From the NCBI RefSeq assembly GCF_964340395.1, contig NC_135554.1:24656592-24720591 (forward strand): 64,000 bases of DNA. The letters are read 5' to 3'. The position numbers and the translations under genes were made by a program. Source of the DNA: Glandiceps talaboti. Its lineage: Eukaryota; Hemichordata; Enteropneusta; Spengelidae. A model generated the notes under the pieces. That model searched no databases and was not told the DNA's origin. It worked only from the letters and a program-made list of their open reading frames with translations. Positions 535-63,976 of this stretch are shown here, piece after piece. Position 1 is the first letter of the stretch. Each line of letters opens with the position of its first letter.

Positions 535-3500
535 CTAAGTTGGAACCCAAGGAAGTTGTTTATTGGACTGATTTTTGTAGTCAAACCCATCATTGTGATA
601 CTGGCCATCACTGGTTGAAGGAACTCTTAAATCTGCTTGTCCACGAGGCGAATACGGTGGCAGTTCCTGCGTTGCGATGTTCTGGGAAATGGATGGCGGT
701 GGTCCAATGCTTGCTTGTTGTTGCTTAGGTTTAGTATACATACGATATATAAGAACAGTAACAATTATGAACGTAACCATAACAGCAATTACTATGCCAA
801 CAATAGCACCATCAGAGAGACCACCAGACTGACTTGCAACTTTAAAATAAAAATATCTATATGTCATTATAACATACATACATACATACATACATACATA
901 CATACATACATACATACATACATACATACATACATACATACACACGTGCATATATGCATACGTACATATACATACATACATACATGCATGTATGCATGCA
1001 TGCATGCATACATACATACATACATACATACATACATACATACATACATACATACATACATACATACATACATGCATGCATGCATACATACATACAAATG
1101 TACATACATACATACATAACATAATATACATACATACATACATACATACATACATACATACATACATACATACAGACACGTTCGTTCGTTCGTTCATTCA
1201 GTCAACCATCCACCCACCCATTCATTCATTCATTCATTCATTCATTCATTGACACGGCTAGCTCAAGTGAAAGGAAATGCATTATACATTTAACGGTAAC
1301 TGCAACGGCTGATTACTAACAAAACTATAGTGTTATGCACCCAGTTAATTGTACCTGATATGAATGTGGATGTTGCAGAGCAAGACTTGTCAAATGTATA
1401 CATTATTACATACCACAATCTGGACAGTTCTCTTCGTCTTTATTGTTGCCACAATTATCAATACAATCACATAGTAAATAAGTGTGGATGCAGCGAATGT
1501 TACCACAGTCAAATTGACCAGTACCACCACAGTAGCTTCCTATGGAAGATTAAAATCATAATACATTGTATCTTTACATTGTCGTAAACCATTGCCTCTT
1601 TTAAGACGCAGCATATATCAGCTCTGGTTTGCAGGAATGATCATTTTATAAATTTAGAGACATTCACATATCCAATTTACCATAACATTTGAATCAGATT
1701 CTGTTTTACTTGCAAACGCGATTGCAGTAAAGTGAAATGTTCGTATTAAATTTTTCTGCGTCTTGGTATTTCTTCATGTCCCATTTCTTAAGAAATGATT
1801 ATTTGAGCTTTGCTATGCATTACTCTGAGACATGACAAATGAGTCCCTTTGCTTACAAATCCAGATATTATTATTTTCAGTCAGTGTGTCTTTCAATAAG
1901 TGTGATTTTACTCTCTCTGAGACTCTGTATTTATGACTGTTCTGTTTGCCCTTTCACTTTCATTGCGTTTATCTTTGGATTATAAGTAAAAGACCAAGTC
2001 AAGACGTAATATTCCTGCCTTTACTACATTGTCAGATTACTGCTATCAACTTCTAAGCATCTCAACTATCAAGTATCATTGGTCACTAATTCAACTATAA
2101 TCCTCTATACTGTACTTGTATGTGTCCTGCCAATTTGGAGATTTCCTTAAAACTTTGTGTAGTCGTGACAACCTTGCAGAAAACGATGTCACATTTACCA
2201 CAAACGCTTTAGTCCTGACAGACCACATGGGGCTTAGACTTAGTTATTTTTATGAATCACACATAATAAACAGACAGACAGACAGACAGACAGACAGACA
2301 GACAGACAGACTGACTGACTGACTGACTGACTGACTGACTGACTGACTGACAACAACAACAAAAGAAAAACATACAAACACTGACAAACATGAACGACAG
2401 AGTAATTGCATATCACTATCAACAACAATTACAATATGTTTTCCTATATGTGATATGGTCACTGTAGAGATATGGGTACTCTACATGTACAGTGATCATT
2501 TCATATAGGAAAACGTGTTGCACTTCTTGATGTTGATATTGACACGTAATTACTCTATCGTTAAAGGTTGTCAGTGTTTAACTTGACATGTTGTTGTTGT
2601 TGTTGTTGTTGTTGTTGTTGTTGTTGCTGCTGCAGCAGCTGTCTGTTTGTTTTGTATGTTTGTTTTGCATGTTTCCGTAAACATTTAACTAGGCCTGAAG
2701 CCCCCCCTCCCCATGGGCAGACGACAACGCTGATTTCCTTACCTGTGGTGTATGATGTATAAATGAGTGAGAATCCTGTGTGGGCGTTCTCTGAACCGGT
2801 GACCAGTCTTAAAGTCACGGCATTTCCTGATGAATGGATATCGAGCGGTGTATCTGAACCACACCCTCTGTATCGAAGGTAAGACGATGGTGAAGTCCCC
2901 CAGTATATCTCTAAATAATCATAGCAGGACGATACATCAGCTCTTTCTAAATCCATCCATTCAAACTACGGAAACAAAGCAATCAAATCAAATCAAATCG
3001 AATCGAATCGAATCGAATCGAATCGAATCGAATCGAATCGAATCGAACCGAACCGAACCGAATCGAATCGAATCGAATCAAATCAAATCAAATCAAATCA
3101 AATCAAATCAAATCAAATCAAATCAAATCAAGTCAAGTCAAGTCAAGTCAAGTCAAGTCAAGTCAAGTCAAGTCAAGTCAAGTCAAATCAAGTCAAATCA
3201 AATCAAATCAAATCAAATCAAGTCAAGTCAAGTCAAATCAAATCAAATCAAATCAAATCACACAAAAAAACAAAAAATAAGCAGAATAATAGAGCAAAAA
3301 CGACACATTTTTTTCCACCTAAATAAATATATCATATTTATATGAGCTGTGATTTCACTCGGGCTCACAACATATCAATCAGTTCTATCGATCAAAACTT
3401 TTCTTTTCCATTCAATATGAACGTCCACTTACGTCCAGTGCAATTATATCAGACCCCAATGGTGTCTTTATCGTAACAGTACAGTCAATGTTGTGAGGAT

Positions 3501-3575
3501 AGGATTCAGAACGTTGAGACATTAATCTATGGCCATAACTTGCTATATTATTACCGCAATGCTCATCCATGTAAA
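535..3575 (-). CDS. CUB-LDLa single-pass membrane protein, gene 1 (5' exon not found)
   Basis: Four exons are visible on the minus strand: 3575-3433 (CUB first half, 143 nt), 2965-2743 (CUB second half, 223 nt), 1539-1414 (LDLa, 126 nt) and 839-535 (transmembrane helix and tail, stop TAG at 537-535). All have AG/GT borders and compatible phases (1, 0, 1, 1). The CUB has its four cysteines (EHCG, DCTV, SCYDYLEI, GCGS). The LDLa reads CGGTGQFDCGN...CDCIDNCGNNKDEENC. The last exon gives a helix (GAIVGIVIAVMVTFIIVTVL), then about 65 cytoplasmic residues rich in Gln, Pro and Tyr with LPPY, a [L/P]PxY WW-domain ligand form. The signal exon should lie upstream of 3575 and end in phase 1; none was convincing. 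The visible part encodes about 265 residues. It is closest to the plus-strand gene at 56.75-63.98 kb. A receptor or adhesion role is inferred. Confidence 0.85.
871..1251. repeat. Microsatellite cluster (CATA)n, (CGTT)n, (CATT)n
   Basis: Compound tetranucleotide tract in the last intron of gene 1. Its Met-Tyr-Val-Cys and Ile-His-Thr-Tyr open frames are not genes. Confidence 0.95.
2270..2350. repeat. (CAGA)n followed by (CTGA)n
   Basis: Two adjoining tetranucleotide tracts in the intron between the CUB and LDLa exons of gene 1. Confidence 0.95.
2438..2514. repeat. Imperfect inverted repeat
   Basis: GTTTTCCTATATGTGATATG and its imperfect complement pair over about 33 bases around a short loop. 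Lies in the LDLa-CUB intron of gene 1. A worn foldback transposon end is likely. Confidence 0.5.
2590..2628. repeat. (TTG)n
   Basis: Trinucleotide tract just past the donor side of the second CUB exon of gene 1; the poly-Gln it gives on the minus strand is intronic. Confidence 0.9.
2972..3262. repeat. (AATCA)n / (AATCG)n / (AGTCA)n pentamer array
   Basis: About 58 pentamers with ordered variants (AATCA, AATCG, AACCG, AATCA, AGTCA, mixed) fill the intron between the two CUB exons of gene 1. Confidence 0.95.
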
Positions 3576-62700: not shown

Positions 62701-63976
62701 TATCACATTCATATTTGTTTTAAAAACGTGACACTAAACGCATAACAGAAAATCCCTAGGCCTCTGGGGTTTGGGCTTGAGAAGACCAACTCGGTGTGCA
62801 AGGTTACACTCAGTGGGTATTAGCAAAGCGCACATGAAGCTGCTCTACGCATTTTGAACTTTGAAGTTTGTATTGCAGTAAAGATTTTCGTATACCACTA
62901 TTGCGAACTGCAAAAGTGGTGGTTTTAAGACGAGGCGTTTTAAGCCTCTTCAGCAATATGATGATGACAATGAGATGTATATAGTTCCTGGTATCCATCA
63001 AGCGATGCTGACTGGCACTTCACAATAAATACTGTCACAAATAAACTCTCTCGAATCGGTATGTCTGAAGTCTTGACTTGAAATATATATGTGTACTGTC
63101 CACCTGATGATTACCTTATATATACATGTATTATTCTATTATAGATGGGAATGACTGTGATCCAGATCCCTGTGAGAATGGCAAATGTTTTGATGATTAT
63201 GAAGACTATTCCTGTGAATGTGAAGATGGCTACAAGGGCAAAAACTGCGATTCGAAAATCACGGGTAGGTATAGGGGCAGTGCTATATCTATTAACAATC
63301 AGCAATATCTTTGTAAGATGCACTGCCAGTAGTTATAAACAATGATTTCAATCAAGACCATGATCATTAACAATTTACACCCTATGTATCCATGCACGTG
63401 AACGGATGGTCAAGGTTAAATAGTGGTCAAGGTTAAAACGTGGTCAAATAGGTTTGCAGCAAGTGCACACTACCCCGGCGGGAAGAGTGATACTTAATAG
63501 AGACTGTACTCTGACTTGGAAGAATGTTGAGACTCCGACTACTGTCATTTTAATTATGCCTTATAATGAACAATGTATATAATGATCCAATTATGATATG
63601 TCTGACAACGCTATCGTTAAAGGGTTATGTTAATTCGGATCACAATTCGGGAGGTGGGGGTGCGTTTGTCTGGCAGAGAGCTAATGAAAAGTTGATCCAG
63701 AACAAAACAAATTATCCTGTATACATTATGGCTCTACTGATAAGACAGTAATAATGTGAGACCTGGGATCATAAAATGGGACTCTTACGAAAATTACAAA
63801 GTGTGTCATCCGTGACTTTATACTTTTCTCTCTCTTCCTTTTTTCTTCTCCAAATTACAGATGGGTCAGAAAGTGGTGCGATTCTATCAATGCCTGCTAT
63901 CATTGGCATATCAGCTGGTGGTATGGTTACACTTATAATCGTCGTTTTCATCTTATATAAATGTAGAAGAAAGTGA
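56751..63976 (+). CDS. CUB-LDLa-EGF single-pass membrane protein, gene 3 (complete)
   Basis: Six exons: 56751-56832 (signal peptide [19 protein letters not shown]...), 57561-57703 and 58518-58740 (CUB), 59194-59319 (LDLa), 63145-63264 (EGF) and 63861-63976 (transmembrane, stop TGA). All junctions are GT/AG and the phases add up to 269 residues. The CUB has [19 protein letters not shown] and RGCGS. The LDLa reads [23 protein letters not shown]...[10 protein letters not shown]. The EGF has six cysteines ([11 protein letters not shown]...[12 protein letters not shown]). One helix ([21 protein letters not shown]) is followed by only YKCRRK, so it has no room for signalling motifs. The EGF exon is not present in genes 1 and 2. 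The 3.8 kb intron before it holds two inverted-repeat elements. The gene probably encodes a small cell-surface binding protein; ligand unknown. Confidence 0.9.
57777..57875. repeat. (AT)n, about 49 units
   Basis: Perfect dinucleotide tract 74 bases inside intron 2 of the 56.75 kb gene, close to the donor of the first CUB exon. Confidence 0.95.
59889..60298. mobile_element. Inverted-repeat element family B, copy 3 (reverse orientation)
   Basis: The reverse complement follows the other two copies through ACATGACTT, GTCGGTCACAATACTTCC, TAAGTAGACGAACATG and TAGGGTCGGTTAG. Ends are more diverged. Located in the long intron before the EGF exon. Confidence 0.6.
60595..60926. mobile_element. Dispersed repeat family C, copy 3
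   Basis: Begins AGGCCTAAA and ends TTATTAGGCCT, giving short inverted ends. The interior matches the 15.0 kb copy closely. Lies in the last long intron of the 56.75 kb gene. Confidence 0.65.
60930..63140. other. Intron DNA before the EGF exon
   Basis: Second half of the 3.8 kb intron of the 56.75 kb gene. No exon-like frame with splice borders in the right phase was found, so a further module cannot be shown here. Confidence 0.5.

Follow-up and report, generated by a model that had tools for sequence, protein, structure and literature searches.

Three related CUB-LDLa exon sets with differing candidate membrane attachments at a locus of Glandiceps talaboti

Proteins that pair extracellular CUB and LDLa domains, such as Loaf, MIG-13 and the NETO proteins, have roles in axon targeting, cell migration and receptor clustering. 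This article concerns a 64,000-nucleotide stretch of the hemichordate Glandiceps talaboti (contig NC_135554.1, positions 24,656,592 to 24,720,591), here called the window. It contains three related sets of CUB and LDLa exons, called sets 1, 2 and 3, which continue into different predicted C-terminal ends.

Loaf (CG6024) of Drosophila has the layout of set 1: an extracellular CUB and LDLa, one predicted transmembrane helix and a cytoplasmic domain. It is found mainly in vesicles, including endosomes, and has been proposed to control the trafficking or function of a surface molecule. Loaf differs in being a single fly gene whose coding exons are identical in two isoforms, and the parts of the article drawn on here describe no relatives that bear an EGF domain or a glycosylphosphatidylinositol (GPI)-like end (PMC8205486). 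Nematode MIG-13, compared by description only, also has the set 1 layout, being a single-pass protein whose extracellular part has one CUB domain and one LDL-receptor repeat; mig-13 can be partly rescued by mouse Lrp12 (PMC5560785). An earlier account of the window, made from its letters alone (the sequence-only reading), knew of no named family with exactly this layout, a claim that Loaf and MIG-13 overturn for set 1.

NETO1, NETO2, Drosophila Neto and C. elegans SOL-2 are alike in combining CUB, LDLa and a helix, and NETO2 aligns with the CUB-LDLa stretch. They differ in having two CUB domains and one LDLa, compared with one CUB in sets 1 and 3; NETO, SOL-2 and LEV-10 all combine more CUB domains with LDLa, and no GPI-like form is described in the sections used. 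In Drosophila, Neto is made as two splice forms with different intracellular domains (PMC9083331). Thus, one ectodomain with different tails is already known.

A likeness in form can be found in the CEACAM family, where members of one ectodomain family are long-tailed, short-tailed, GPI-anchored or secreted, and where the ligand-binding exon undergoes conversion between paralogues (PMC2832619, PMC5856374). CEACAM proteins are not CUB-LDLa proteins, and their tails carry an immunoreceptor tyrosine-based inhibitory motif (ITIM) or resemble the corresponding activation motif (ITAM). Their GPI signal arose from a helix exon, whereas the candidate last exon of set 2 shows no detectable origin of this kind (PMC5856374, PMC2832619). 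In the literature consulted on CUB and LDLa with GPI, paralogue or duplication, as far as its texts were available, no cluster like that of the window is mentioned.

The three sets were located by searching the window with its own CUB exons (tblastn). Exon B of set 1 matches exon B of set 3 with E 5e-32 and that of set 2 with E 2e-20 within the window, so the likeness is not due to chance. Sets 1 and 2 lie on the minus strand near the left end of the window and set 3 lies on the plus strand near the right end (Table 1), in DNA that is AT-rich throughout (GC 0.325 to 0.443 in 2-kb steps). The exon lengths of 143, 223 and 126/129 nucleotides (nt) and the common CUB and LDLa phases reported in the sequence-only reading are borne out for all nine shared exons. 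Each is flanked by AG and GT splice sites, the phases 1-0-1-1 are common to the three sets, and the proteins read through.

Three related CUB-LDLa copies are therefore real. DNA matches between the sets are confined to exons, bar one of 27 nt, so the copies are probably old. The earlier description of them as three genes holds for the existence of three related exon sets; the separateness of sets 1 and 2 is not established, and their phases permit one gene. “Three exon sets” is the better wording, because sets 1 and 2 lack a convincing signal-peptide exon and the stop codon of set 3 lies near the window edge.

Table 1. Positions of the exons assigned to the three sets, in window coordinates
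Set	Feature	Length (nt)	Phase	Position	Strand
1	Exon A, N-terminal part of CUB	143	1 to 0	3433..3575	minus
1	Exon B, C-terminal part of CUB	223		2743..2965	minus
1	Exon C, LDLa with 8 cysteines	126		1414..1539	minus
1	Last exon: helix (22 residues), then tail (69 residues) containing LPPY and two YxN			535..839	minus
2 (or 2 and 1 joined)	Weak candidate signal-peptide exon, within 6-kb tandem repeat			17114..17186	minus
2	Exon A	143		12048..12190	minus
2	Exon B	223		11035..11257	minus
2	Exon C, LDLa	129		10608..10736	minus
2	Candidate last exon: Thr/Ser stretch and GPI-like hydrophobic end			9805..9941	minus
3	Candidate signal-peptide exon		1 (donor)	56751..56832	plus
3	Exon A	143		57561..57703	plus
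3	Exon B	223		58518..58740	plus
3	Exon C, LDLa	126		59194..59319	plus
3	EGF exon	120	1-1	63145..63264	plus
3	Last exon in the window: helix (homologue of the set 1 helix), five residues, stop			63861..63976	plus

Pfam finds one CUB domain in each set (E 4e-16, 1.1e-14 and 2.9e-16 in sets 1, 2 and 3) and, after it, one LDLa domain (E 9e-5, 2e-4 and 5e-5). The LDLa scores of 23.0, 21.7 and 23.8 bits are slightly below the Pfam cut-off of 24.1. An EGF domain is found in set 3 only (E 3e-6). For sets 1 and 2, this count of one CUB and one LDLa requires that they be separate genes; joined, they would have two of each, and in neither case is the NETO-type layout of two CUB and one LDLa obtained.

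The LDLa domains of all three sets have eight cysteines, the six usual ones and two extra. One of the extra cysteines replaces the residue after “CD” and the other follows the last usual cysteine; the two possibly form an added disulphide. The Asp ahead of the fifth usual LDLa cysteine is changed to Asn. The “TD/SD” turn of the CUB domain, in the column of the cubilin and neuropilin Asp, has Gly in set 1, Asn in set 2 and Ser in set 3. We take the altered positions to be calcium-binding, and calcium binding may be weakened in the CUB and LDLa domains alike.

Beyond the LDLa exon the sets differ. In set 1, the helix and the long Pro/Tyr tail with LPPY are present at 839-535 as the sequence-only reading had described them. 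A pattern search of the tail finds LPPY as its sole PY-type motif, two YxN, two PxxP (one within [KR]xxPxxP), one YxxP and one 14-3-3-like motif. The same search finds no PPxY, NPxY, YxxPhi, ITIM, ITAM half, PxxPx[KR] or class I PDZ motif. The tail of MIG-13 has Abl and Grb2 as partners; no paper on MIG-13 with SEM-5 was found.

The end of set 3 is also as described, with an EGF module, a helix and a short tail, which consists of the five residues KCRRK before the stop (six if the preceding Tyr is counted). The helices of sets 1 and 3 have 22 residues each and no charged residue. As judged by alignment, the two helix exons are homologous and share an ancestral exon: their protein score is 62 against a shuffle mean of 22, with 0/2000 shuffles reaching it, and their DNA score is 57 against a mean of 18 (0/1000 shuffles). 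The introns before the last exons contain no further in-phase internal exon at an acceptor score of at least 5 and a donor score of at least 7.

For set 2, the Thr/Ser stretch and hydrophobic terminus reported earlier are found in phase in exon 9941-9805, where the hydrophobic end has 13 residues; the exon itself is a candidate only and could have arisen by chance. It is probably the real last exon of the set. Its acceptor (8.1) is the best among the exons passing the filter, and by rough arithmetic about 0.1 to 0.2 such exons are expected by chance in the 7 kb downstream of set 2. In a search for a helix exon between 10608 and 3600, only this exon, its internal acceptor and the weak exon 8628-8570 passed; set 2 shows no clear helix. 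Exon 9941-9805 contains a 54-nt tandem duplication that includes the splice acceptor, giving a second acceptor at 9887; 47 of the 54 positions are alike in the register compared.

GPI signals have a small residue near the C-terminus, then a short spacer and a hydrophobic end, with no tail. Exon 9941-9805 fits this shape by eye and by a hydropathy rule, which makes a lipid (GPI) anchor plausible for set 2. Derivation of the exon from a helix exon was considered and found no support in shuffle tests. No homology is detectable to the helix exon of set 3 (shuffle fractions 0.12 and 0.09 for protein and 0.46 for DNA) or to that of set 1 (0.12 for protein and 0.41 for DNA).

Evidence for selection comes from the pattern of differences between the sets. 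In all three pairs, differences within exons A to C are most frequent at the third codon position, and therefore the ectodomain is under purifying selection on the protein. Between sets 1 and 3, for instance, the first, second and third positions differ in 24%, 19% and 48% of codons. The nonsynonymous divergence (dN) of this pair is 0.24 in exons A to C (162 codons) compared with 0.65 in the 36 codons that the two membrane exons have in common. By this measure, the membrane exon has changed faster than the conserved ectodomain.

The model that we favour for the locus, and to which we give an even chance, is a small animal family of CUB-LDLa co-receptors at the cell surface: duplication would have preserved the binding module while altering its attachment to the membrane. 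The module would bind a partner protein; such binding has been reported for NETO proteins and proposed for Loaf. The LPPY of the set 1 tail would recruit a Nedd4-type ubiquitin ligase with WW domains and sort the complex to endosomes, a role read from four residues. The L/PPxY motifs of Comm and PRRG4 bind Nedd4; in the case of Comm, this binding is described as important at the neuromuscular junction but not for Robo at the midline (PMC5578492). Set 3, nearly tail-less, would tether the partner but not sort it. If GPI-anchored, set 2 would present the module on the outer leaflet or shed it. Output would then be set by the anchor and not by activating versus inhibitory signalling.

The sequence-only reading had inferred a duplicated recognition module combined with signalling, lipid-anchored and tail-less outputs, as in paired receptor families. 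The duplication of CUB-LDLa and the differing C-terminal exons agree with this, while the analogy to paired receptors is not supported. The strong form of the claim, with three genes, three proven anchors and paired signalling, is not established.

In favour of the co-receptor family are the shared exons, phases and domains, the selection acting on exons A to C beside the faster-changing membrane exon, the homology of the two helix exons, the LPPY motif, the vesicular location of Loaf and the alignment with NETO2. Several observations weigh against it. Although CUB-LDLa aligns with NETO2 as a single stretch (E 1e-11 and 5e-11), the pairing is not specific to NETO2, since enteropeptidase aligns across both domains too; the closest solved structures to the CUB domain are cubilin, PCPE-1 and the neuropilins. 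The window ends 24 nt past the stop of set 3, and a GT overlaps that stop, which may be an artefact of the window edge; a tail reached by further splicing is possible. Elsewhere in the window, counting both strands, three last exons pass the same filter as exon 9941-9805, two of them overlapping in one frame, and downstream of set 2 there is also the weaker hydrophobic last exon 8628-8570, whose acceptor scores 4.0. Finally, sets 1 and 2 both lack a convincing signal-peptide exon.

Set 3 has a good candidate for such an exon, separated from its exon A by a 728-nt intron. It is one of ten donors on both strands of the window that pass the signal-exon filter, three of which are copies of one repeat. 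The best candidate for set 2 lies 5 kb upstream, inside a repeat, with further copies at 23178 and 29568. Looser candidates for set 2 are found at 17856 and 17844, and hydrophobic frames without a good donor at 14882, 14343 and 14052. Its exon A could also start without splicing, as the frame stays open upstream as far as an ATG at 12284. The repeat in question is a tandem array of units of about 6 kb at 16061-31276, in which 16061-22583 and 22056-28572 are 97.9% identical and a partial third copy extends to 31276. It holds a reverse-transcriptase open reading frame (25284-27971) and three copies of the signal-peptide-like exon.

For set 1, no signal-peptide-like exon is found in 9800-3575 even at loose thresholds. 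At these thresholds, 0.3% of plus-strand stretches of the same length are empty, and so are 5% of minus-strand ones, among which this stretch itself is counted. With stricter thresholds the shares rise to 53% and 25%, and the absence is therefore suggestive only. The nearest alternatives are a 25-nt exon at 9357, coding for eight residues, and a hydrophobic frame of 27 residues that starts at the ATG at 8653 but has a poor donor. An intron of set 1 contains a signal-like match (2395-2336), which was rejected, as it runs into a simple repeat. At the stricter thresholds, a donor score of at least 5 and a hydropathy of at least 2.0, sets 1 and 2 share their nearest upstream signal-like start, at 17186.

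The main alternative, absent from the sequence-only reading, is that sets 2 and 1 form one minus-strand gene, A2-B2-C2-A1-B1-C1-D1. It would encode CUB-LDLa-CUB-LDLa followed by a transmembrane helix and the Pro/Tyr tail, exon 9941-9805 would be an alternative, GPI-like end after one module, and only set 3 would be separate. Exon C2 ends and exon A1 starts in phase 1, so that the join reads through, and in the joined protein Pfam sees two CUB and two LDLa stretches. The empty stretch upstream of set 1 and the shared start at 17186 also favour such a gene. However, the intron between C2 and A1 would be 7.0 kb long, more than every intron modelled within the sets (298 to 3825 nt). The missing signal exon of set 1 is weak evidence given the stricter thresholds, an atypical exon at 9357 or 8653 could supply one, and the start at 17186, lying in the 6-kb repeat, may be chance. 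If sets 2 and 1 are one gene, a likeness can be found in LRP3, LRP10 and LRP12, in which CUB and LDLa alternate ahead of a helix. These proteins have more LDLa repeats. We regard the joined gene as a serious contender, its chances falling somewhat short of even.

Less probable, and on balance unlikely, is that the differing ends are partly artefacts of the gene models. The last exon of set 2 would then be due to chance, set 3 would be spliced beyond the window, and all would be single-pass receptors with tails. The position of the set 3 stop, the similar hydrophobic last exons elsewhere in the window together with 8628-8570, and the lack of detectable homology between the set 2 exon and the helix exons (shuffle fractions 0.09 to 0.46) all speak for this. 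On the other hand, the set 2 exon combines the best acceptor among those passing the filter with the right phase and the shape of a GPI signal, and apart from its internal acceptor and 8628-8570 no other hydrophobic last exon passed in 10608-3600.

Two further models involve gene conversion, which is suggested by exon B. Between sets 1 and 3, the proportion of synonymous sites that differ (pS) is 0.47 in exon B (24.5/52.3 sites) compared with 0.85 in exons A and C together (43.8/51.3 sites). This deficit has a permutation p of 0.0002 and a Fisher p of 2e-5, though the test was chosen post hoc among nine exon-by-pair comparisons and the effective p is perhaps ten times larger. It is absent for sets 1 and 2 (p 0.53) and for sets 2 and 3 (p 0.11). 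Conversion limited to the exon, between the inverted copies 2743-2965 and 58518-58740, is a possible cause.

In the first of these models, one locus switches its last exon, making either a short lipid-anchored form with one module or a long two-module form with a ligase-recruiting tail. An inverted sister 45 kb away would have lost the tail, gained an EGF module and be swapping its CUB exon by conversion. We think this combination improbable.

The second is a paired-receptor family, in which a duplicated recognition module with opposed signalling outputs is kept alike by exon-limited conversion. It is favoured by the few synonymous differences in exon B between sets 1 and 3, which are inverted relative to each other, and paired receptors of the CEACAM family show such conversion, partly between inverted subclusters (PMC2832619). 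Among invertebrates, receptors with activating and inhibitory tails are treated in a review of Botryllus allorecognition, the main text of which, as available, does not use the phrase “CUB domain” (PMC12065747). The likeness to CEACAM is fair in form and, as far as such an analogy goes, not supported in signalling: with neither an ITIM nor an ITAM half-motif in the tail of set 1, no charge in the helices of sets 1 and 3, full-length identities of 62% and 40% to set 3, and an exon B test picked from nine after the data were seen, a paired-receptor family is very improbable.

The window contains several other features. On the minus strand at 41012-44180, a somatomedin-B exon (43692-44180) lies upstream of a 7tm_2 exon (41012-42790); the two are likely to represent a G-protein-coupled receptor gene, both exons being assumed to belong to one gene. 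A second, different reverse-transcriptase frame is found on the minus strand at 45873-47414 (RVT_1, E 4.8e-35). Minisatellites occur at 39676-40605, with a spacing of 126 nt, and at 52602-53370, with a spacing of 42 nt. The latter has minus-strand open frames of 119 and 166 residues, the longer without a Pfam match above the cut-off. A charged open frame of 109 residues on the minus strand at 13260-13589 has no Pfam match at E 1. An Rfam scan of the window gives no family at the gathering score. A scan of viral contigs returned one match, at locus L001, whose open reading frame has the peptide TGQFDCGNI in common with the query. It was rejected as chance, being 35% identical over query residues 93-136 on what appears by eye to be a terminase-like phage contig.

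The biology of the locus can thus be placed next to that of known proteins. The layout of set 1 is already known, and varied tails on one ectodomain are known from Neto. An added EGF module, a tail nearly lost and an end resembling a GPI signal were not encountered in the parts of the literature consulted, where lipid-anchored or nearly tail-less relatives are undescribed. Rather than a new class of system, the cluster would, if the co-receptor family is real, be a natural experiment on tail function.

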